A DNA stretch of 64,000 nucleotides, taken from NCBI GenBank assembly GCA_030429345.1, contig JAUIFJ010000015.1, forward strand, positions 1 through 64,000, written 5' to 3'. The notes beneath the pieces were generated by a model. The model was not told where the DNA came from, did no database searches, and saw only the letters and a list, made by a program, of their open reading frames with translations. The position numbers were made by a program, and so were the translations under genes. The DNA comes from a bacterium (GTDB lineage Bacteria; CAIWAD01). Positions 105-31,464 of this stretch are shown here, piece after piece. Position 1 is the first letter of the stretch; each line of letters begins with the position of its first letter.

Positions 105-3100
105 TCATTTCACCAGCAACACCTTGTGATGCATCTGCTGCTCACCGGCCTGGAGGCTGAGGAAGTAGCTGCCGCTGGCCAGGCCGCTGCCGTCGAGGGT
201 CAGGCTGTGGGTGCCCTGCAGAAGCGGGGTGCCCTGGATCAGCTCGCGCACCAGGCGACCGCGCAGGTCATAGAGAGCCAGGTGGACCGTGGCGGGAGCA
301 GCCAGCTGGAAATCGATCCGTGTCACAGGGTTGAAGGGATTCGGCGCGCTGCGCAGTGCCAGGCTCTGCGGCAGCAACAGCGCGTCGCCGCCGACGGAGG
401 TACTGGTCTCGCCAAGACGCAGCAGATGGATGTTCTTGATCGGCTGGATGCAGCATTGCGTTCGCAGGCGGATCTGCTCGATCCAGCCCAGGTAGGCCCC
501 GCTTGCGCCCGCGGCGGTCATTGCCGTCTCACGCAGGTCGCGCAGTTCGGTATTGGCATAGAAGGTGCCGTGCCAAAGGCGCGGAGGCTCGGCGGGATCC
601 GCCGTGGCGAGCTCGTGTCCGCCGATGTAGAGGCGATCCCCCGTCCCGTCCGGATTCTTGCGAATAAAGGCCAACGCAGCCCGCGTGTCTTCTCCGGATC
701 CCCAGAGCTGCAGGGCCGGTTCCGTCTCCCGGCCCTCGTCTGGACGCAGAACGGCCTCCGCCGTTTCCCAGCGCAGGCTGCCGTCGGCGAGCACGTGTCG
801 CACGCCGACACGGCTGTCGAAGGCCATGTCCAGTTCGGAGCTGGCGATGATCAGGCCGCCCCAGGGGTCCGGCACCAGGACATGCCGGTCGAAGGAATTC
901 CCGATGCCGCTGAACTCCTGGGTCCAGGCCGTGTTCCACTCCGCATCCAGGGCCAGCCCCTGCAGGGAATTGCGGCCATCGTCTTCCAGGTTCTGCCAGA
1001 CACAGGCCAGATCGCCTCCGGCCAGGCGGGCGACCTGCAGTTGCCGCCGGCGCCCCTCGCTTTCGATGATCGTCCCTCCGGACAGGATCCCGCCGTTCGA
1101 GGCCGTGATGCGCTGGTAGTAGTACAGGCGGTTCGCCAGGTCCTGCACCGAGTAGAACAGGACCGCCTCGCCTCCCTGGATCAGCATGTGTTCCAGGCCT
1201 TCGGCGACCAGCGGCGAATCCGTGATACGCAGCCCTTCGCTTCCCCACAGGCGTTCCCCCGTGGCCGAGAAGGCCTGCAGGCCGAGATCGCCGTAGAGGC
1301 TTTCGCTCGCGCCCCAGTTGCCGTCCCAGCCCAGGAGGACGCCTCCATCCGGATGGGATGCCAGCCGCAGGTTGCGCTGGTAGTGTCCGCTCTGGCCGCT
1401 CTCGTCGAAAGTCTCACAGGCGGAGACCGGCTCGGGCCACAGCGGATTCCCCCAGGCGTCCAGGTGATGCAGCCAGGCGCGCTGGCTCAAGTAGTCGCCC
1501 AGCTCGGCAGCCACATAGAAGCTGCCGTCCTCCGCCTTGTGGATCACATAGGATTGAGTGCGTTCCTCGATGTCGGGAAAGAGCACGCGACCGGCAGCCT
1601 CGAGCTGCAGCTGGCCGTCACTGCTTTCGATGAACTGCAGCATCAGCTTGTCGGCGCCGGCCCAGGTCGTGGACTCGACCCATCCGGCCAGCACCCCGTT
1701 GCCGTTGTCCGCCAGCTGCAGTCCCCAGGCATCGCCGGCGGGGCCCCAGACGATCTCGGCCCCCTCTTCCGCCTTCATCCGGGCACCGTCGCTGTCCAGC
1801 ACCTGGTAGCGCAGTCCCGGCGCTCCGCGCATTTCGTCGAACCAGAGGGCCTGCAGCCCCTCTCCGGCCGGAGACAGGATGACCTCGCTGGCCCGCGTCT
1901 GGCTCTCCTCGAGCTGCAGGGCCACCCCGTTCTCGGCCCAGGCGGTCTGCCAGTCGCTTTCCAGCGCCTGGACGTAGACATTGCTGCGCGGCTCGAAGCG
2001 CCGGTCCTGCCAGGCGATGTATACACGATCCTGCTCCTGCAGAATGCGAGGATCCTCCTGGATTCCGGGTACCAGCGCCAGTCCGCGGCCGCCTTCCTCG
2101 AAAAGCGTCTCTCCGGATTGCAGCACGCGCTGCATGTAGAGATCGGCCTCCTGGCTGCCTTCCTCGTTGCGGCTGTCCTCCCAGACGACCAGGCATTCGC
2201 CGGGCTGTGTCACAGCCAGGGCGGACGCGCTCTCGCGCACGCCCGGTTGTGCGGCGATGCGGCTTTGCGTGTCGGACAACTGGGACTGCAGCGCGGCATC
2301 AAGCCGTTGCATCCGCAGATCGCCGAAGAAATCCGTCGTCCGGTCCGTCCAGGCCAGCCAGGCTCCCGAGCCATCGGCTGCCAGGGCCGGCTCGAGCTGA
2401 AATCCAGATCCTCCTTGCACCAGCACGCCGTTCTCCGCTCCGGTGATCCCGCCCGCGGCGCTGACGTGCTGGGCGTACACATCGCCGTCCGGTCCGTTGC
2501 GCGTATCGATCCAGGCCAGCCAGACGCCGCCGTTGCCATCCGGCTCCAGGCGCAGGGAGGACTGGCTGCCGGGCGCCGTCGAAATGGCCAGGCCATCCTG
2601 GTAGATCTCGTCCATGCTGCCGTCGGGGCCCAGCCGGGCCAGGAAGAGATCCCAGTCCGAGTTGCGCAGGTCCGTCCAGGCGATCCAGCAACCGCCTTCT
2701 CCGTCGGGGACTCCCTTCAGGTCTCCGGCGAGGTAGTCGGAATCGATCAGCCCGCCCTGGTGCAGGAGGAGGTCCTGGTTCCAGAGCACGGAGCCCTGCT
2801 CCCCTTCGTCCATGATGCGGTTGATATAAAGACTGCCGCCGCCGCTGCCGTCGCGAAAGTCGAACCAGACAACGAAAGCGCCGCCGTTTCCGTCGGAAAT
2901 GGCCAGGGGTTCCGCCTGCTGATCCAGTTCCCCGCTGATCTGCAGGGGAGCTCCGTTGCCCCATCGCAGAGCCTGCGCTTCCGGATGCAGTTTCTGGGCA
3001 TAGACATCGAAGTTGCCGCCGCGGGCGTCGCCCCAGACGACGATCATACCCCCGTCCGATGTCGGCACGGCGCTGCGCAGCCAATTGACGTAGTATCCCG

Positions 3101-21625: not shown

Positions 21626-22348
21626 CTAGTCGGAGAGGTAATACTCGATCGTGCTCACCACCCGCACTTTCTTGATGTGCGGATTGTTGCGGTCGCGGCT
21701 CTGGATGCTGAATTGCCCCTGGGAAGCGCGCCGGATCTTGCCCAGGCGGCTGTCCGAGTCCTCGGCGAACTTCTCCGCCACGGCGCGGGCTTCCCGTGTC
21801 GCCTCCTCGACCATCTCCGGCTTCAGCTCGTTGAGTCCGGTAAAAATGTACTCCGTCTGGGCCATGTAGTTGTCGCCGCCGAGCACGAGTCCCTCGCGGC
21901 CCAGCTCGCTCAGGCGCCCCATCAGCGAACGCACTTCGTCGACGCGGCTGCTGTAGACCGTGACGACCTGCTGTGCCACGTAGCGATAGGCGGCGCCCCC
22001 CGAGTTGCCGTACTGCTGGGCGCTCTTGTCCGTGATCGCCGGCGCGCCGAGCGAGATCTCTTCGTCCCTCAGGCCGTTTCCGGTCAGGAACAGCCGAAGC
22101 TGCTCGCTGCCCTGGTCGATCTCGCCGTAGAGAGTCTGCAGATTGTTGGCCGCTTCCGTGAACTGGATCGGCCAGATGACGATGTCCGCAGGCACTTCCC
22201 GCTCGGAAAGGCCCTTCACCGTCACCGTGCGCTCAAAAGCCTTGAAGCGGATCAGCGCATTGCCCAGCTGGAAACCCAGGACCGCCAGGCCCAGAAAAAG
22301 CAGCAAGCCGTGCAGGGAAACGCGGCTGCCGCCGGAAGTCGATTTCAT
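21626..22348 (-). CDS. SIMPL-domain (DUF541) protein
   Basis: A 240-residue envelope protein anchored by an N-terminal helix (LHGLLLFLGLAVLGFQLG). The SIMPL domain starts TVTVKGLSEREVPADIVIWP and continues through DRNNPHIKKVRVVSTIEYYL. Family members are implicated in oxidative stress protection, which fits the downstream peroxidase. The start at 22348 follows GGAGG at four bases; an in-frame codon ten residues upstream lacks one. It is first in the run SIMPL, lipoprotein, PH-like, peroxidase. Confidence 0.88.
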   Translation of the reverse strand: MKSTSGGSRVSLHGLLLFLGLAVLGFQLGNALIRFKAFERTVTVKGLSEREVPADIVIWPIQFTEAANNLQTLYGEIDQGSEQLRLFLTGNGLRDEEISLGAPAITDKSAQQYGNSGGAAYRYVAQQVVTVYSSRVDEVRSLMGRLSELGREGLVLGGDNYMAQTEYIFTGLNELKPEMVEEATREARAVAEKFAEDSDSRLGKIRRASQGQFSIQSRDRNNPHIKKVRVVSTIEYYLSD

Positions 22349-22428
22349 GCAGCCTCCGGAAGTGGATTGAACCGGCAAAGTGGCATTTCCCGGCAGGCAT
22401 TGCAGTCCGCGGGGGGAAGACAGAAAAA

Positions 22429-22502: not shown

Positions 22503-23624
22503 CTACTGGATCAGGCTCATCCGGCCATCCAGCCGCAGGCCGGGGCCTGTGATGGTGTAGACATAGGTTCCGGATGCGACGCGCGTCCCCGCGTCGTTCC
22601 GGCCGTCCCACCGGATGCGCGCCTCGCCGGCGGTCTGTTGCAGGGGACCGATGTTCCTCACGCGTCGCCCCTGCAGGTCGTAGATCGTCAGGTTGACCGC
22701 CCCGCCCTCCTCCAGCGCGAAGGCCAGGGTGGTTGTCGGATTGAATGGATTGGGTGTGACACGCGCTTTCCCGGAGGGACGGCTTCCGGTCTGCGGCTTC
22801 TGTTCTTCTTCGAGGCCTTCGGGAACCTCGAGGCCCCACTCCTCCAGCTGCAAGCGCATGTTCTCGTGGATCACGGAGGGCGCGGCCCCCTCGGCCAGGA
22901 GGCTCTCGCGCAGCTTGTAAAGCTCCGCGCGCTGTTCGCGTTCGAGCGTCTCTTCCAGCATGCGACCCGGGCCGCGACGAGCGGAATCCTTCCCGTGGCG
23001 CCTTCCCTTCGCGGGCGGCTCCAGCCCCCACTCCTTCAGACGTGCATCACAGGCCTGGCGAATCTCTTCGCGGTCCTTTCCAGCATCCCGCAGGTCCCTC
23101 CGCAGGGAGTGGAGTTCGTCCCTTTGGCTTTCGCTGAGCCCAGGAAGGACGCCATGGCCCTTTCCACGCCCCTTGCGCTCCCGCGGCTCCGGCAGATCGA
23201 CTCCCAGGAGGGCAAGCTTCTCCCGGCGGGCCTGGCGGACTTCCCTGTGAGACGCGCCGTCGGCGAGCAGCTCCCGGCGCAGGGAATAGAGTTCCGCGCG
23301 CGTTTCGCTGTCGAGCTCTTCCATGAATCGCTGCGGACCGCGGCCCTCCTTCCTTCGCTCCGGCATCCCGGGCAGGTCGACTCCCCAGCCTTCGAGAAGA
23401 GTCCGTGATGCATCACGCATCGCGGAAGGCGCGGCCCCCTCCTGTTCCAGTTCCAGTCGTTGCTCGTGCAACTCGGCGCGCTGGCTGTCCGTCAGATCCT
23501 CCAGGAAGCCCTGTTGCCCGGGACCGCAGGGCCCTTCGCCCCTGGCCTGGATCGCGCTGTTGAAGCCCACCAGGGCGCCGAAAGCCGCGAAGGCCATCAG
23601 GCTCTTCTTCAATATGTGATGCAT
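22503..23624 (-). CDS. Secreted protein with four LTxxQ/Spy-like repeats and sorting domain
   Basis: A 373-residue exported protein. After a signal peptide come four repeats of about 60 residues (roughly 36-96, 97-157, 158-217, 218-278). Each has a core like LTDSQRAELHEQRLELEQEG and an end like LLEGWGVDLP. The core resembles the LTxxQ motif of Spy/CpxP/CnrX periplasmic chaperones and metal sensors, here in tandem. The last 90 residues (VTPNPFNPTTTLAFALEEGG, IYDLQGRRVR, SGTYVYTI) are a FlgD-like sorting domain, so surface delivery is inferred. AAAGGAGG precedes ATG 23624. Its own promoter matches that of the adjacent sigma-factor operon. Role proposed: surface or periplasmic sensor or chaperone of that stress response. 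Confidence 0.85.
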   Translation of the reverse strand: MHHILKKSLMAFAAFGALVGFNSAIQARGEGPCGPGQQGFLEDLTDSQRAELHEQRLELEQEGAAPSAMRDASRTLLEGWGVDLPGMPERRKEGRGPQRFMEELDSETRAELYSLRRELLADGASHREVRQARREKLALLGVDLPEPRERKGRGKGHGVLPGLSESQRDELHSLRRDLRDAGKDREEIRQACDARLKEWGLEPPAKGRRHGKDSARRGPGRMLEETLEREQRAELYKLRESLLAEGAAPSVIHENMRLQLEEWGLEVPEGLEEEQKPQTGSRPSGKARVTPNPFNPTTTLAFALEEGGAVNLTIYDLQGRRVRNIGPLQQTAGEARIRWDGRNDAGTRVASGTYVYTITGPGLRLDGRMSLIQ

Positions 23625-23649
23625 GCTGTCCTCCTTTGTGTTTCGCCTC

Positions 23650-23678
23650 TTGGACGAGGCGCGCATGCGATCGATTCC
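23650..23678 (-). promoter_or_regulatory. ECF-type promoter of the LTxxQ-repeat gene
   Basis: On the minus strand GGAATC, 16 nt, CGTCCAA, placing the transcript start about 20 bases before the ATG and just ahead of the ribosome site. It matches the promoter at 26011-26039 at every -35 and -10 base and in the CGCCT before the -10 element. Confidence 0.8.
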
Positions 23679-23713
23679 GGAATCCGGCAAATTTTCGCGA
23701 ACTCCTTCTCGCT

Positions 23714-24556
23714 TCAGGGGAGCTGGAGCCGGAACCAGATCTTCAGCGGATCCGCATCGGCCATGCCGCCGGGGCTCCCTTGTGGAGGGCCTCCGCCCCT
23801 CTCGCCGCCCGGGCCGCCACCGGGAGCTCTTCCCATTCCGCCACGGCCGCCACCGCCCCTGGCTTTTCCTCCGCCGGGAGGGCCACCGCCTTGACGCATG
23901 TCCCTGCCGGGTCGGGACCGGAAGGAACTCGGCTCTCGCGTCTCCACGAGGCCGAAGCCGATGCCTGAACCGGGTTGTATTACAGCATCCTGGCGGTCAT
24001 CCAATGATACGCCCAGTGGCAGGGCCAGCCACAGATCCCAGCCTTGCGGACCGGACACGAAACGGCTGCAGTCCTCCAGCGGTGAGTCGGCAGGCAGAAG
24101 CGAGGTCGACTCTTCTTCGTCCCGCAGGATGTGCACCTGTTCGGAAACACCCAGGCGATCGTTGAAAAAACGCCCTCTCCGTGGGCGATCCGCCTCGCCT
24201 TGCCTGTCGCCGGTGAGGCCGCCCCCTTCCCGTCCGCGCGGCTCCCGCAGCGGTCCGCGGAACTGCAGTCCCAGGGTCTTCCGCTTTCCCCCTTCCACAT
24301 CCATCCAGAAGGTGATCTCTCCTCTTCGCAGGCCGCGGGCGAGCATCGGGGATTCGCTCTGCAGCAGGATCCAGAGAGTATCCCCGGATGCGGCGAAGCC
24401 TGCCCGGGCGGGCGGGTCCTCGGCGCTCCACGCCGGGGAGAGGGAGAGCAACTCCCCGGCGCTCTGCGCCATCGGGACATCGATGGCCTGCATGCGACAG
24501 GATGAAAGGACGAGAAGTCCGAGGCCCAGGAGCCCCATGCGGCGAATGCGGATCAC
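23714..24556 (-). CDS. Lipoprotein of the ECF sigma operon, Gly-rich tail
   Basis: A 280-residue lipoprotein with lipobox LLVLSSC. Its central domain (SGDTLWILLQSESPMLARGL, EITFWMDVEGGKRKTLGLQF, WDLWLALPLGVSLDD) has the strand pattern of DOMON/CBM9-like beta sandwiches seen in FCB lipoproteins. A long Gly/Pro/Arg-rich stretch occupies about residues 220-265, before a final WFRLQLP strand. The GTG start overlaps the Spy-like stop by four bases, so it belongs to the sigma operon. Ligand unknown. Confidence 0.75.
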   Translation of the reverse strand: MIRIRRMGLLGLGLLVLSSCRMQAIDVPMAQSAGELLSLSPAWSAEDPPARAGFAASGDTLWILLQSESPMLARGLRRGEITFWMDVEGGKRKTLGLQFRGPLREPRGREGGGLTGDRQGEADRPRRGRFFNDRLGVSEQVHILRDEEESTSLLPADSPLEDCSRFVSGPQGWDLWLALPLGVSLDDRQDAVIQPGSGIGFGLVETREPSSFRSRPGRDMRQGGGPPGGGKARGGGGRGGMGRAPGGGPGGERGGGPPQGSPGGMADADPLKIWFRLQLP

Positions 24557-25062
24557 GGGCGCGCTCCTTCCCGGCCGGATGACGAACTGTCGGGGTCCGC
24601 GTGATGCAGTCGCTCCCCGCCGGGAGGCGGCGCGTCCGGATCGCCGGGGCCTCCCGGCCCTCTATGCCGCCCTGGTCCGCCGGGCACACCGGGTCCGCGG
24701 GGACGACCGCGGCGCCCTTCGCCGAAAGCCTTCTGCAGGCGTTCGAACTCTTCCGGCCCCAGGCTTTCGCGCAGCACCTGCAGCAGGGAATCCATCCGCG
24801 TCTTCATCAGCTCGCGGTGACCGCGGATCAGGCTGCTTGTCTCACGCGAATGCACCTCGAGCAGGGAATCCAGCTCCTCGCGCTGCGCCGCGTCCAGCTG
24901 CAGGCGGTCGAGCAGGAAGCCCTTCAGCATGCCCGGCCGATCGAACATGCGCATCTCGCTCATCCGCTTGTGATGCAGCCGTCCACCAAGGAACAGGCCG
25001 AGGAAGATGCCGATCACCAGGGTCATCACGAGCAGCAGGATGCTCTGGGTGCGCGGGCTCAT
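24553..25062 (-). CDS. Membrane-anchored Spy/CnrX-like periplasmic sensor
   Basis: A 169-residue protein with one N-terminal helix (SILLLVMTLVIGIFLGLFLG) and a helical periplasmic domain. That domain contains DRLQLDAAQREELDSLLEVH and MKTRMDSLLQVLRESLGPEE, the helix-hairpin pattern of CpxP/Spy and CnrX heavy-metal sensors. His and Met residues near the anchor (LHHKRMSEMRMFDRPGM) could bind metal. The C-terminus is a Gly/Pro/Arg-rich tail. It overlaps the anti-sigma stop by four bases (ATGA). By analogy with CnrYXH it would signal envelope or metal state to the anti-sigma factor. Confidence 0.82.
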   Translation of the reverse strand: MSPRTQSILLLVMTLVIGIFLGLFLGGRLHHKRMSEMRMFDRPGMLKGFLLDRLQLDAAQREELDSLLEVHSRETSSLIRGHRELMKTRMDSLLQVLRESLGPEEFERLQKAFGEGRRGRPRGPGVPGGPGRHRGPGGPGDPDAPPPGGERLHHADPDSSSSGREGARP

Positions 25063-25379
25063 CGGCTTCCCCCTTCCGCCAGATCCAGGCTGTTGGCCAG
25101 TGTCACATCAGGAAGGGACAGCAGCCGTGTGACAAGATCGCCCTCCGGCGCGCCTCCCAGGTTCCAGGCGCCCAGCAGCAGCAGCAGGCAGGCCGCGCCG
25201 AGGGCCAGCCGCGGAAAGAGCTCGCGGATCCAGCGATCCAGAAGGTCCTCCGGCTCGCCGGCCAGTCTCGGTTCCTGCAAGGCGTAGCGCAGACGCCCGC
25301 TGAATCCGGGGCGAAAGGACGGCGGCTCGGCTCCCTGCAGCAGGTCCTGCAGATCGCGTGTATCGGGTTCTTGCTTCAT
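25059..25379 (-). CDS. Probable anti-sigma factor
   Basis: A 106-residue single-pass protein. It has a 50-residue cytoplasmic part (DLQDLLQGAEPPSFRPGFSG, RLRYALQEPRL), one membrane helix (LALGAACLLLLLGAWNLGG) and a short periplasmic tail. Its size, topology and place between the ECF sigma gene and a Spy-like sensor, with four-base overlaps on both sides, indicate an anti-sigma factor. No zinc-binding HxxxCxxC motif is seen, so it is not of the ZAS type. Confidence 0.75.
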   Translation of the reverse strand: MKQEPDTRDLQDLLQGAEPPSFRPGFSGRLRYALQEPRLAGEPEDLLDRWIRELFPRLALGAACLLLLLGAWNLGGAPEGDLVTRLLSLPDVTLANSLDLAEGGSR

Positions 25380-25975
25380 GGAATCTCCTTCCCCTTGGTC
25401 CGGTCCAGCAACGGCCCCAGTTCCTCGCGCAGCTTCTGCGATCCTCGCGCCAGCCGGCTGAGCACAGTGCCCTTGGGCAGCCCAAGCAGCTCGGCCGTTT
25501 CCAGGGTCGAATAGCCCTGCAGCAGCCTCAACACGACGACGGCGCGCCAGGCCGGCTTGAGCCGCCGTACCGCATCCTGCACGAGCCGGCTGCGCTCGCG
25601 GGCATCCAGGACCTCTTCGCCGGAAAGCCGCGGCTCCAGGGAACCGAGCTCGGATGGCTCCAGCCCCAGCCAGCGCCCCAGGACACCTTGCCGCGAGCGC
25701 AGACGGTCCAGGCAGCGATTGATGGCCACGCGCGTCAGCCAGGTGCCGAGCTGCGCCTCGCCGCGGAAGCGGTGCAGGTTGGCGTGCAGGCGGATGAAGA
25801 CCTCCTGCCCGACATCCTCTGCATCCATGCCGGACCCCAGCATGCCGATGACCGTGGCCGCCACGCGTCCCTCGTGCCGCTGGACCAGTCTTTCGAAAGC
25901 GGATTCGTCGCCGCCCCGCGCCTGTTCCAGGTCCGGACCGTCTTCCCCCAGGTGGATATTGGCGCTCTTCGTCAC
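25376..25975 (-). CDS. ECF-type RNA polymerase sigma factor
   Basis: A sigma-70 family factor of about 199 residues. Region 2 is ESAFERLVQRHEGRVAATVI, then DAEDVGQEVFIRLHANLHRF and GTWLTRVAINRCLDRLRSR. Region 4 is AWRAVVVLRLLQGYSTLETA and LLGLPKGTVLSRLARGSQKL. The GTG at 25975 is chosen because the operon's own promoter occupies 26011-26039; the upstream ATG at 26041 would lie before the transcript start. The stop overlaps the anti-sigma start. Autoregulation is inferred from the promoter it shares with the LTxxQ-repeat gene. Confidence 0.9.
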   Translation of the reverse strand: MTKSANIHLGEDGPDLEQARGGDESAFERLVQRHEGRVAATVIGMLGSGMDAEDVGQEVFIRLHANLHRFRGEAQLGTWLTRVAINRCLDRLRSRQGVLGRWLGLEPSELGSLEPRLSGEEVLDARERSRLVQDAVRRLKPAWRAVVVLRLLQGYSTLETAELLGLPKGTVLSRLARGSQKLREELGPLLDRTKGKEIP

Positions 25976-26010
25976 GGCCTGGAGCGGTCCCCTATTGTGG
26001 ATGGCATTTC

Positions 26011-26039
26011 TTGGACGAGGCGGGCAGGACATCGATTCC
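26011..26039 (-). promoter_or_regulatory. ECF-type promoter of the sigma operon
   Basis: On the minus strand GGAATC, 16 nt, CGTCCAA, with CGCCT just before the -10 element. It is identical in all boxed bases to the promoter at 23650-23678, which supports autoregulation by the sigma factor encoded just downstream. Confidence 0.8.
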
Positions 26040-26094
26040 ATGACGGAGTCGGCCCGCGAACTGCGAAACGGATGCCGAAGGGGATTATTGCAGA

Positions 26095-26148: not shown

Positions 26149-29100
26149 TCAGTCGTGATACAGGCTTCCGTCGGGGCCCGGGTAGTCCCAGGTCGGACGC
26201 ACCCGGTAGTTCCAGTTGCCTTGCAGCTGGGACATGCTCTCATCGTCCCAGACGAGAGGCTGGCTGCCGTCCCAGGGCAGCTCCCGATGCAGCGGAAACG
26301 CGCCCGTGCTGTTGGGGGAACGCAGGATCTGCAGGCCGGAAACGGGGGGATCCAATGGCGACACCACCAGGCGGGGCCGGTTCTGCGCCAGCTGGATCGA
26401 CAAGGCGGGCGCCGTCGGACCGGAAATCCCCCGGACCGGCAGGTGCCCCGCATGCCCCGGTCCGCGCAGCTCGTGCCACAGAGGCCAGGAGGAAGTGAGC
26501 AGATCGTAGCACACCAGCTCGCCGTCTTCCTGGAGCAGGAGATGCAGGCTGCCGTTCTGCATCAGGGGAACGGGCCGGCGGCGACAGTCCGTCAAGTGGA
26601 TCTGCCCTTCCTCGATCAGGGGATCATAGGAAGACTCGTCGGCAAGAAGCAAGTCCAGGCCCAGTCCTTCGCGCAGGCGCAGAAGGTCCGCTTCGCCGTC
26701 CTCGTTGTGATCCAGCAGCCAGAGGGTCTGGGGCACATTGGCGGCGATCGTCTGCGGGCTTTCCATGCGCCAGGGCCAGAGCGGATCGCTCAGATCCAGC
26801 TGCCGCAGCCCGCCCTGATCAATGCCGTCCGCCAGGCGGTCCAGCGAATGGAAGAGCAGTCCTGTCGGCTCCCAGGCGGAATGGCCGGGCAGGGGCAGCA
26901 ACTCCTGCGGACCATGCCCGTCGACGGTGCTGCCGGCGAAGGTGCGCGCGCTGTAGCCCCAGGTCTGCTCGCTTTCCGACCAGGAAAGCAGGAGCAGCAC
27001 CTGCTGATCCGGCTGCAACCCGGGCTGCTCGGTCAGGGCAAGCACGGCGCAGTCGACGAGGCCGTTGTGCAGGAAATCGGCGCAGAGCAGCTGCTGCCAG
27101 TCCACATGCATGGGAGCGAAGTCGGTCGGATCCACTTCCAGCAGGACCGTGCCGTCCAGGGCAATCAGCGCCAGGGCCGGCTGGGCGTCGGGGCCGCCCC
27201 CCAGCAGGAAACGGGGTCCCAGTGCATCACCTCCCGCATAGGCCAGATGTGTGACAGGCAGGATCTCCTGGGGCAGGGAGATCTGCTGCCGCGCGTCGTC
27301 CACCGGGGTGCCGTCGGTGGAACGCAGCAGCAGCTCGTCGCCGTCCACGAGGGCCAGGATCGTCTCTTCGGCGATGGCGGTTTCCGCGAAGACCATTGCA
27401 GGGCCCGGATCCACCAGGGAAATCGGCCAGCCACTCAGCGGCTGCGGCGCGTTCTGCGGTCCCGTATCATAAAGAACGGCTTCATCCGCCGTGATCACCA
27501 GCAGCTCTTCGGGGCTGTGCTCCGGGCCGGCAGCCTGCACGCAGAAGAAATCCAGCACTTCGCCACGGGGCGTCAGGCTGCCTCGGTGGACCAGTCCCTC
27601 TCCGTATACATCGAGGGTGCCGTTCTGCAGCAGCACCAGCGCGTCCGGGGAACTGGCCGCGCGCCATTGCGGATCCGCCATCGGCAGCACCGCACGCCGC
27701 GGCGGACCGATCCGGCGCTGGACCGTCATGAAGTTGTCCCGGTAGTTCCCGGTGTCGATGTCCCGCGACCGCACATTCAGGTCCAGGGTCCAGGTTCTTC
27801 CAAGCCACAGAACGGATTCCTGGATCTGGATCGAGTGCTGTGGCACATCCACTTGGAAGGATTGGAGAGGCAGATGAAAGTTGAAAGCTCCATCGATGTC
27901 GCCGTATACCGGATCCAACGAACAAAAATCGGGTGAATCATCGAGAACAAATGCTTCAACGTTTGAGAATCTTCCCCCCAGGTTGAGAACCGGAATGACC
28001 AGGTCTTCCTGTAGATTCATTGGCACTTCCAGGGAAGCGGTCTCGACCGGGACGATGTGGTGCGGCTCCGAGGAGTCCAGCGGATTGCCCACTTCGACAT
28101 GGATGTCCGGCTGCACAGAAAAGTAGAAATCGAGGTATACAGAGTCCGCGGAACTCCAGCTTCCGCGATCCAGCAGGCTGTTGTTCTCGCTGGGAAAGGG
28201 GGCATGGCTTTCGGCGAAGCGGCCAGGTCCCAATGGCAGCAGCTCGGAGCGAATCAGTTCCGGAACACGCTCCTCGCCGAGCACGCCCTGGACCAGGTTG
28301 CCATGGCTCTGATAGACCAGCCCCCTGCCGTTGGCGACCAGGGAGGCCGGATAATGCGCCATCAGGTCCCCCGGCTGGTTGGCAAAGGCCTGAAAGGCCA
28401 TCATCTCTTCGGGCTGGAAGGGATTGCGCCAGTAGACCAGGTCCTGGTCCAGGTTGAAGGCATAGGTCGAATCCTGCCCGCCGCCCAGGTAGAGCTCGAC
28501 GGCATCCTGGGCCCAGCCAAGCCGCAGGCGGTCCACGGGGTTCAAGGGCGCCGGGAAATGGATGTCGGCATAATCCCCTGTAAACTGCGCCGCGCCGATC
28601 TCGCCCTCCGCCATGAGGTCCCATGCACCGGATCCGCGGGAATCGCTGCTGACGGGGTCGAAGCCCGTCTCACGAAGATTCCCGCAAACCTGCAGCAGCA
28701 TCTTGGCCAGATAGCCGACGGGGATGTAGTCGCGGACAAGACCATCTCCGGATCCGATTTCGTACCACAGATTGCTTACCGCGAATCCACTGTGAGGGTA
28801 CGAGAGAGTATGCCCCGGCAGATGATTGCCTGACAGGAGAAACAATACCGGGCGAGTAGGGCCACGGTCGGACAAATCCAGACCCTGCGCCTCCAGGCTA
28901 CCGATGAAGCCTGTCCAGCTCTGCATGTCGAAAATGTTGACACGCCAGGGGTTTCCCTCTGGATCACAGGCCCATCCGGGATAGGTCCCGTACCAGTCAC
29001 AACGGCGATTATCGGGGACGATGTTGCAGACGACACTATCCTGCTGGACGCGGAAGTAGTCAGCCAGGGAGCCGGATTGCAGCAGAAGTCCAGGTGAGTG

Positions 29101-29637
29101 CGAATCCAGGAATTCTGCAAAAAAGTGATCGTATATCTGATCCAAGGTCAAATCTGTATCGTCCCAAAGGAAAAAGTCCTCATCCTCCCAAAGAAGGGAA
29201 TCAACCGATTCCGCGTAGAGTCGAATCGGAACGACGGCGAGTTCTATGTTTGCGCCAAGCGGTAGAACAGGATCTGATTGATAGTCCATCTCGGAGCGAG
29301 AGCTCCGCCATTCTGCAAGAAGGCCAATCCGATTTGGCACAGTATCACTAGGAAAAACCTCTTCTGAACCGTTCAAATTACCATCACTTGCATCAGCGGC
29401 GAAATAGAATGGCTCGTCACTGGCCAACGGCATCAATCCCGAATGCCCCCCTTGCCAATCTCTAAACTCTCCCGATTGGTGACCAACCAAAGGACTGCCA
29501 TCGGCAGAGCAATAGGCTGTGCCATTGTTGCTGTGATATAAATATAGAGCGGCAGTATCGATCTCCGCGTGTAGGCCAAAAGCTGCCATGGACACTGCGG
29601 GAACTGCCAAAGACAAGATGATCGAGAACAGGTTCAT
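26149..29637 (-). CDS. M6-metallopeptidase-like secreted protein lacking the zinc motif
   Basis: A 1162-residue exported protein with signal peptide MNLFSIILSLAVPAVSMA. Its first 400 residues follow the layout of immune-inhibitor-A (M6) peptidases: a VVPIRLY strand, a domain opening SGSLADYFRVQQDS, a GSGAWDLMAEGE turn and PLNPVDRLRLGWA. Where HExxHxxGxxD should lie (about residues 300-320) it reads YIPVGYLAKMLLQVCGNLR, with no histidine or glutamate. The rest is a beta-rich region with propeller-like strands. No sorting domain is seen at the C-terminus. ATG 29637 has GGAG ten bases upstream. A binding pseudoenzyme is the most likely reading; catalysis by another site cannot be excluded. Confidence 0.7.
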   Translation of the reverse strand: MNLFSIILSLAVPAVSMAAFGLHAEIDTAALYLYHSNNGTAYCSADGSPLVGHQSGEFRDWQGGHSGLMPLASDEPFYFAADASDGNLNGSEEVFPSDTVPNRIGLLAEWRSSRSEMDYQSDPVLPLGANIELAVVPIRLYAESVDSLLWEDEDFFLWDDTDLTLDQIYDHFFAEFLDSHSPGLLLQSGSLADYFRVQQDSVVCNIVPDNRRCDWYGTYPGWACDPEGNPWRVNIFDMQSWTGFIGSLEAQGLDLSDRGPTRPVLFLLSGNHLPGHTLSYPHSGFAVSNLWYEIGSGDGLVRDYIPVGYLAKMLLQVCGNLRETGFDPVSSDSRGSGAWDLMAEGEIGAAQFTGDYADIHFPAPLNPVDRLRLGWAQDAVELYLGGGQDSTYAFNLDQDLVYWRNPFQPEEMMAFQAFANQPGDLMAHYPASLVANGRGLVYQSHGNLVQGVLGEERVPELIRSELLPLGPGRFAESHAPFPSENNSLLDRGSWSSADSVYLDFYFSVQPDIHVEVGNPLDSSEPHHIVPVETASLEVPMNLQEDLVIPVLNLGGRFSNVEAFVLDDSPDFCSLDPVYGDIDGAFNFHLPLQSFQVDVPQHSIQIQESVLWLGRTWTLDLNVRSRDIDTGNYRDNFMTVQRRIGPPRRAVLPMADPQWRAASSPDALVLLQNGTLDVYGEGLVHRGSLTPRGEVLDFFCVQAAGPEHSPEELLVITADEAVLYDTGPQNAPQPLSGWPISLVDPGPAMVFAETAIAEETILALVDGDELLLRSTDGTPVDDARQQISLPQEILPVTHLAYAGGDALGPRFLLGGGPDAQPALALIALDGTVLLEVDPTDFAPMHVDWQQLLCADFLHNGLVDCAVLALTEQPGLQPDQQVLLLLSWSESEQTWGYSARTFAGSTVDGHGPQELLPLPGHSAWEPTGLLFHSLDRLADGIDQGGLRQLDLSDPLWPWRMESPQTIAANVPQTLWLLDHNEDGEADLLRLREGLGLDLLLADESSYDPLIEEGQIHLTDCRRRPVPLMQNGSLHLLLQEDGELVCYDLLTSSWPLWHELRGPGHAGHLPVRGISGPTAPALSIQLAQNRPRLVVSPLDPPVSGLQILRSPNSTGAFPLHRELPWDGSQPLVWDDESMSQLQGNWNYRVRPTWDYPGPDGSLYHD

Positions 29638-29775
29638 TGATAGAGGCTCCAACTTTTCGAACTCCTCTTCAAGAACCATACCAGATTTTGTCAAGGCTAA
29701 GTTCTTATTTATGCATTTCTCGAACTATAAATCCACGTTGGACTGTCACGGCTGTCAGCAAAACTGAAGCATGTG

Positions 29776-31464
29776 TCAAGGCAGGTAGAGCAATTTCGAA
29801 TTGGCAACAGAGACACCATCCAAGTTCAAATCAATCAAGTACAAACCTCCGGCCAGGTCTTCCATATTTATGAGGGTGCTGAATTCCCCTGCTGAAACTG
29901 AATCAAACGACTCCCTGAGGGCCAATTGACCTTGGAGGTTGTAGAGCTTAAAGCTGACAACCGCGGTTTTTGCCAGTGTAAAGACCAATCGCACACTTCC
30001 GTTTGCTGGATTCGGGTATAAAGAGAAAACCGATTTCTTCTCATGCGAATTACTATTCACAGTTAGGGCAGGCGGAGAATATCTGTTCGCAAATAATCCA
30101 ATTTCTACGCCGCCCATGTGCTCTTCATGAATCGAAACGAAGCCCCCATCCAGGAAGTATGGGCGTTGCCTGCCACCGTATCGAGTGCCTGGCATTGCTA
30201 TGTATTCTTCATAGACCCAATCACCACCAGAAATCGAAAATCGCGCCAAGGCCGACCTAAAAATCGCATCTCCGGCATGCCTGGTGTACATCCATCCGGA
30301 TTGCAGAGGAAACAGCGGTGCAAAGCATAATTCTGCGTAGAGTGAATTCTGAACTACAAGACCATCAAGAGTAGTACGAATTATCCGGTTATAGACGCCA
30401 TTGCTGGATCTGCAATCCCCAAGGATAATAGCATGACTACCCTCGATAATCATCCCTGCGCCATGTAGATACTCATCTCCATCGTAAAGCAATACAGAGT
30501 CCCACACACCCGTCTCAAGATCAACCGTGAACCATCTATAATGACTCCAGGTCGGATCGGCTTGTGATGTGGTCACGAAGTACATGGTATCGTCAACGAT
30601 TCGAAGGAACTCATCGTGCCAGCTACTATTTCCATAGTACCGATCCAGGCCTGTATTCCAGACTACCACTCCACCAGCATCCAGTCTTGTAATCTGCGTA
30701 TTCTGCCAAACAATCCATCCATCTTGATAGGCTATTGGAATGGCTGTCCCCGTGTACTGCGATCCAGAGAGCGTATCCTCGTGAACAATTTGCCGGAGTT
30801 CATCGTCCACAACGATATACCTTTGACCAAAGGCCGCGCTATCCGGGTTGCTATAGCGCGCAAATCCCGATGTAATAATCGTCCTGTCTCCATTGGAGGC
30901 CAGCTTCATGCTGAATTTTCCATAATCCAGCGAATCCCCCCAGGTCGTCACACGCAGCGAGTCCAGCAGCGTGATCTGTCCTCCCGCATAATCGAGGTTC
31001 CACCAGTTGATTGTCGCCTGGTAGCGGTAGTCGTAGGGCCAGCCGGAGAGGAACTTCTCCTGGTCGAAGGTCATCAGCTGGCCCTGGCTGTTCACGTGTG
31101 AGACACCAAAGGCGCCCGGGTGCTCGAGCCACTGGTCGGGCAGGAGGATTTCCCCGTGGGGCGAGATCACCGTGGCCGCGCCATCGTTGTCCGCAGGATC
31201 GGCGACGAGGAAATTAGGGTGCCAGTATACGAGCAGGTTGCTGTCCGGCAGGACGTGCTGCTCGACGAAGTCAGAGTGCGCCGTGTTGTTGTCCAGGCGA
31301 ATGAACCAGTCGAAGCGGGTCGAATCCACGGGCCAGTCCAGCTGGGCGTGGGCTGGAAGCGACAAGAGCAGAATAAGCAGCAGGGAGGCAACACTGCATT
31401 CACGCAGGGCGGAGTGCCTTGAAAACAATGGCAAACGGCACAAGGATCTTGAGAATGGACGCAT
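29776..31464 (-). CDS. Secreted protein with type A sorting domain, AT-richer
   Basis: A 562-residue exported protein with a signal segment (SVASLLLILLLSLPAHA). Its mature body has repeated strand-rich stretches with W and D (TRLDAGGVVVWNTGLDRYYG, YRWFTVDLETGVWDSVLLY) suggestive of a propeller. It ends with a classic sorting domain: FSLYPNPANGSVRLVF, FKLYNLQGQL, LAGGLYLIDL. Base composition through its middle and C-terminal coding part is visibly less GC-rich than the rest of the window, and codons are correspondingly more AT-ended, hinting at transfer or relaxed selection. Function unknown. Confidence 0.82.
   Translation of the reverse strand: MRPFSRSLCRLPLFSRHSALRECSVASLLLILLLSLPAHAQLDWPVDSTRFDWFIRLDNNTAHSDFVEQHVLPDSNLLVYWHPNFLVADPADNDGAATVISPHGEILLPDQWLEHPGAFGVSHVNSQGQLMTFDQEKFLSGWPYDYRYQATINWWNLDYAGGQITLLDSLRVTTWGDSLDYGKFSMKLASNGDRTIITSGFARYSNPDSAAFGQRYIVVDDELRQIVHEDTLSGSQYTGTAIPIAYQDGWIVWQNTQITRLDAGGVVVWNTGLDRYYGNSSWHDEFLRIVDDTMYFVTTSQADPTWSHYRWFTVDLETGVWDSVLLYDGDEYLHGAGMIIEGSHAIILGDCRSSNGVYNRIIRTTLDGLVVQNSLYAELCFAPLFPLQSGWMYTRHAGDAIFRSALARFSISGGDWVYEEYIAMPGTRYGGRQRPYFLDGGFVSIHEEHMGGVEIGLFANRYSPPALTVNSNSHEKKSVFSLYPNPANGSVRLVFTLAKTAVVSFKLYNLQGQLALRESFDSVSAGEFSTLINMEDLAGGLYLIDLNLDGVSVANSKLLYLP

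Follow-up and report, generated by a model that had tools for sequence, protein, structure and literature searches.

A putative autoregulated ECF sigma factor module with a Spy-like sensor and a type IX-tagged tandem-repeat protein as its second output

Closest described systems and layout of the locus

In Phocaeicola vulgatus, cirY and spy are induced when the anti-sigma gene of the CirYZ-Spy system is deleted, together with two genes downstream that have no transcriptional link to them (PMC13114119). This is the nearest experimentally studied arrangement that we found (PMC13114119), followed by CnrYXH of Cupriavidus metallidurans, in which Met123 of CnrX has a role as a metal ligand (PMC7689651). 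In Porphyromonas gingivalis, PorA, a T9SS-CTD protein, feeds into PorXY-SigP ECF signaling (PMC7712824).

The locus described here lies in a window of 64,000 nucleotides, which is the whole stretch of DNA analyzed. All module genes are on the minus strand, and the genes for the sigma factor, anti-sigma protein, sensor, and lipoprotein each overlap by exactly four bases (25376–25379, 25059–25062, and 24553–24556), as described in the initial annotation (Table 1). The repeat gene starts about 90 bp past the lipoprotein stop codon, and the GGAAT-N17-CGTCC copy found directly 5′ of it supports the earlier proposal that this gene is independently promoted. For the sigma gene, the GTG at 25975 was the better placed start, because the longer ORF from the ATG at 26041 would cross the sigma promoter. 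Near the module, a SIMPL (DUF541) protein is encoded directly downstream of the repeat gene (21626–22378, minus strand), a 1181-residue ORF without a Pfam match at E ≤ 1e-4 lies upstream of the sigma gene (26149–29694, minus strand), and a protein with a Por_Secre_tail domain is encoded at 29776–31464 (minus strand).

Table 1. Coordinates of the module features in the window.
Feature	Position	Strand	Basis
ECF-type promoter GGAAT-N17-CGTCC of the sigma operon	26013..26039	-	Same motif and spacing 5′ of sigma in G001, G002, and G003
ECF sigma factor, 199 aa, GTG start	25376..25975	-	Sigma70_r2 3.6e-17, Sigma70_r4_2 4.2e-11; TIGR02937 above cut-off
One-TM anti-sigma protein, 106 aa, conserved F-x-P-x-F motif, without zinc-finger motif	25059..25379	-	Alignment with positional homologues
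Membrane-anchored Spy/LTXXQ-superfamily sensor, 169 aa	24553..25062	-	Family profile against Spy structures
Lipoprotein, 280 aa, CBM9-like family, LSSC lipobox (by eye), Gly-rich C-terminal part	23714..24556	-	Homologue alignment
Second ECF promoter copy, 5′ of the repeat gene	23652..23678	-	Motif match
Exported tandem-repeat protein, 373 aa, predicted signal peptide (by eye)	22503..23624	-	Unit profile, FlgD_ig, TIGR04183
Layout of the repeat protein: four two-helix LTxxQ-type units; T9SS/FlgD-Ig tail	residues ~40–275; ~288–373		

The CirY/CirZ-Spy system shares with this locus an ECF sigma factor, an anti-sigma protein, and a co-transcribed Spy-type protein, as well as induction by the sigma factor of its own operon and of unlinked genes, whereas a tandem-hairpin, T9SS-tagged protein is not described there (PMC13114119). 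CnrYXH likewise encodes together an ECF sigma factor, a membrane anti-sigma protein, and a membrane-anchored sensor of the same broad superfamily. However, the CnrX metal ligands, His/Glu and Met123, are absent here as a conserved set, and the output of CnrYXH is an RND metal efflux pump, in contrast to the exported repeat protein of this module; no efflux gene was seen in the module or at the motif-matching sites that were read in the genome of the window. The relation to Spy and CpxP of the LTXXQ family is visible in the profile match of the sensor to Spy and in the LTxxQ signature of both sensor and repeats, but the module sensor keeps a membrane anchor, and the repeats are tandem two-helix units of about 44 residues with an export tag. 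PorXY-SigP with PorA also links a T9SS-tail protein to an ECF sigma factor, although its sensor type is unrelated and SigP controls T9SS component genes.

The combination of sigma factor, anti-sigma protein, and Spy is of a known kind, and its exported tandem-repeat, T9SS-tagged output is new here. The initial annotation had regarded a tandem-repeat version with an export tag in the same regulon as novel. In the open-access literature searched, no paper was found in which a Spy-type sigma system is paired with a T9SS tag. The likeness to CnrX is not supported.

Promoters and distribution of the module

The promoter sequences 5′ of the sigma gene, GGAATCGATGTCCTGCCCGCCTCGTCCAAGA, and 5′ of the repeat gene, GGAATCGATCGCATGCGCGCCTCGTCCAAGA, have both hexamer regions and the spacing in common. 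A looser motif matched three times in the window, a count reached by 0 of 100 shuffles. In each of the family's four genomes (G000, the genome of the window, and G001–G003), GGAAT-N17-CGTC was located upstream of both the sigma gene and the repeat gene with identical spacing. The extended pattern GGAAT-N17-CGTCCRA gave nine sites in these genomes (about 14 Mb), seven of them at modules, and its reversed-pattern control gave none. G002 and G003 had two sites each, only those at the modules, and G001 had one, with its second module site reading CGTCAGA instead of CGTCCRA. G000 had four, of which an extra site at C52:4148 precedes a run of exported-protein genes (L027:4148-7418), one encoding a T9SS tail and one a Cthe_2159 carbohydrate-binding domain. 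The motif copy at C75:84989 of G000 was rejected as a regulon site; it sits in a long opposite-strand ORF and is probably due to chance.

Autoregulation, as put forward in the initial annotation, is strongly supported, since each of the four genomes has the same, genome-wide near-exclusive promoter 5′ of the sigma gene and of the repeat gene: the sigma factor probably controls its own operon and the repeat gene through these near-identical copies, with phylogenetic footprinting as evidence, which is strong but not transcription data. The regulon looks very small. A related motif of a second phylum, GGAAT-N16/17-KGTCTAA, had 32 genome-wide matches in 12 genomes, and 13 of these (both G099 sites included) were at modules; the off-module matches carry little weight because the reversed control there was not empty. 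The promoter pattern was not found 5′ of the repeat gene in G049, G127, and G128.

Scanning with a unit profile revealed the repeats in four of five genomes of the window's phylum. The second phylum, that of G049, had them in 17 of 82 genomes, and a third in two of four, namely G221 and G466. Among 386 other sampled relatives they were almost absent, and the tail-rich phylum of G029 (80 genomes) yielded one weak partial match and no module-type unit array. Relatives of the whole repeat protein mostly shared the FlgD/T9SS tail, and the unit-profile scan of those loci detected no units. The order sigma, anti-sigma, sensor, and repeat protein, whose conservation in relatives the initial annotation had put up as a check, was kept, as far as contigs extended, in G000–G003, in ten second-phylum genomes, and in G221, while G466 carried a rearranged set. 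About 4 kb separates the sensor and repeat genes in G072, and no module sigma operon adjoined the repeat gene in G127, G128, and G121. A DUF5659 gene lies 5′ of the repeat gene in several genomes. Versions of the module are present in at least three phyla. The sets of G221 and G466 adjoin genes for TolC, HlyD, and an ABC exporter; in G466, a single run (L238:3657-12001) encodes the sensor, TolC, HlyD, ABC, a MacB-type permease, DUF5659, a six-unit repeat protein, and the lipoprotein.

Features of the encoded proteins

The anti-sigma protein of the window alone had no Pfam or NCBIfam match. It aligned with 13 positional homologues, and 9 of these 14 members matched the NCBIfam anti-sigma factor NF052375; G221 has a zinc-finger anti-sigma protein in place of the short one-TM type. 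The lipoprotein aligned with seven homologues, which are encoded elsewhere directly downstream of the repeat gene and one of which matched CBM9_1 (E = 1.7e-4). The CBM9-like lipoprotein gene is usually 3′ of the repeat gene, and in G000 it is 5′.

The window sensor taken alone was below the gathering scores of both Metal_resist (E = 1.7e-4) and LTXXQ. At the family level, membership in the Spy/LTXXQ superfamily is supported by profile searches, in which the sensor-family profile matched Spy structures (E = 2.1e-6) and 9 of 15 members matched LTXXQ. No CnrX chain was matched by this profile at E ≤ 1. The sensor had been proposed to be Spy/CnrX-like, and the Spy half of this proposal holds, but not the CnrX half, as the ligands are not conserved. 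Only Q60 and L101 were invariant in the alignment, and G18, G22, D91, and E104/Q105 of LTxEQ were nearly so. A single-sequence model of the sensor (pLDDT 67) gave no useful fold match.

The four tandem LTxxQ-like repeats reported initially were recovered as four units of 44–49 residues with E-values of 1e-18 to 1e-21 against the unit profile, whose training set of four genomes included these units. Their consensus is qLTeEQRxeLrxlvxeLRxqGAsREEIrxAVxxLLexWGiexPE, and the conserved residues (L, Q, G, W, and P) look structural and indicate no ligand. Module repeat proteins contain 2–6 units each, and 86 units were collected in total, including those outside modules. The arrays seem to have gone through further duplication within lineages, because half of the units (43 of 85) had their nearest relative in the same protein; mean identity was 53% within and 39% between proteins.

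An AlphaFold2 single-sequence model of the window repeat protein (pTM 0.30) showed two helices per unit, flexible linkers, and a beta-sandwich tail, with pLDDT mostly 80–94 in the first three units. Spy is a multi-helix dimer of about 100 residues, in contrast to the units of about 44 residues. Pfam LTXXQ matched 1 of 13 units (E = 0.006), and a 35-unit profile found no Spy in the PDB. For the Spy-like hairpins considered earlier, the AlphaFold2 model supports a predicted two-helix hairpin per unit. Profile-profile comparison aligned the unit with the sensor over 37 of 44 columns at 77% probability, a value that between short helical profiles falls short of proving homology, compared with 3.6% and 0.2% for two other module families. 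Kinship of the unit to Spy or the sensor is suggestive only.

The tail of the repeat protein scored 43.4 bits with FlgD_ig (curated cut-off 27) and 29.4 bits with the T9SS type A sorting domain TIGR04183 (cut-off 23). The best fold matches of its model include FlgD, latent PorU, PorZ, and the T9SS SprA-PorV complex entry 8gl8. SprA (664 bits) and PorU (562 bits, cut-off 420) of the same genome were both over cut-off, and a PorV-like protein reached 196 bits, below the curated PorV cut-off. Family and fold both identify the tail as a T9SS CTD, and export of the repeat protein by T9SS is likely, given the match of the tail to the type A model and the SprA, PorU, and PorV-like genes of the same genome.

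Possible functions of the module

Our preferred reading, held tentatively and at just short of an even chance, is that the locus is an autoregulated module for envelope stress, with an exported, multivalent helical protein as its product. Its gene content, promoters, conservation, tail type, T9SS genes, and hairpin prediction are backed by sequence, and we infer the direction of sensing, the type of stress, actual export, and the binding or chaperone activity. The Spy-like sensor would sit in the inner membrane by its anchor, its helical domain facing the periplasm, and in unstressed cells would make the anti-sigma protein retain the sigma factor at the membrane. Stress on the envelope, caused by misfolded or harmful molecules and not by one particular metal, would free the sigma factor, which would transcribe its own operon and, from the second promoter, the repeat gene. 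The repeat protein would cross the inner membrane by its signal peptide, and type IX export would then take it to the external side of the outer membrane or further out. There, its 2–6 amphipathic helical hairpins on flexible linkers may work as a holdase or multivalent binder, shielding the surface or trapping the harmful agent. The CBM9-like lipoprotein may be its envelope partner. CirYZ-Spy, counted as an independent parallel, supports the stress-module reading (PMC13114119).

A more specific proposal, which we consider rather unlikely, is that a Spy-derived helical unit was multiplied and combined with a type IX tag to yield a sigma-controlled chaperone-like protein beyond the outer membrane or a reporter of T9SS flux to the Spy-like sensor. 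To our knowledge, the responses to envelope stress known so far operate mainly within the cell or the periplasm. A small conserved regulon with a type IX-tagged second output would carry such protection out to the cell surface or, alternatively, couple the sensing of stress with secretion, and this in phyla that have received little study. Being compact, with a defined promoter and a seemingly very small regulon, the module lends itself to direct tests.

All module repeat proteins whose C-terminal end was read have the sorting tail, and this would also suit a feedback on secretion flux. In this scheme the repeat protein, while periplasmic, would bind the sensor or anti-sigma protein through its likeness to the LTxxQ helix of the sensor, and would be withdrawn by T9SS export. 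A block of export would then reset the sigma factor or set it off, and the module would monitor type IX secretion or outer-membrane traffic. The unit–sensor profile alignment and the precedent of PorA in PorXY-SigP (PMC7712824) point the same way, but such alignment of short helical profiles is no proof of homology and no T9SS component gene was present among the neighbours or regulon sites examined, and we regard this feedback as unlikely. It is fairly unlikely that the repeat gene encodes a conventional surface adhesin or a biofilm or matrix protein, with structural hairpins and an LTxxQ likeness arising as a convergent helix N-cap. Its lasting association with a Spy-type sensor operon in several phyla argues against this, as does the insertion of one unit in a periplasmic HlyD adaptor, although the units lack a Spy match, their conserved residues are structural, and the third G000 promoter precedes genes for T9SS-tail and carbohydrate-binding proteins.

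A response to heavy metals on the CnrYXH model, in which the sensor would detect metal as CnrX does and the exported repeat protein would bind it, is very doubtful. The membrane anti-sigma protein and the Metal_resist/LTXXQ sensor architecture agree with it, and H82-x3-M86 of the window sensor has a spacing that we take to resemble that of the His/Met ligands of CnrX, such as Met123. However, no conserved His/Met/Cys ligand set was found across 15 sensors: the aligned His was present in 8, HxxxM at that place in 3, and HxxxH in none, and Cys was almost absent. The units also contain little His (2.0%), Cys (0.2%), or Met (2.1%), and the sensor profile matched Spy, not CnrX. CnrX-type metal sensing is not supported.

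Units of the same type were also observed in other proteins. In G221 (C7), an HlyD/MacA-type periplasmic adaptor (L190:4310-5785), encoded beside the module and an ABC exporter, contains one inserted LTxxQ-type unit at residues 330–375. In G365 (L191:6404-8492), two nearby exported proteins, without a T9SS tail or sigma operon, carry the same units together with DADGDGIND-type motifs.
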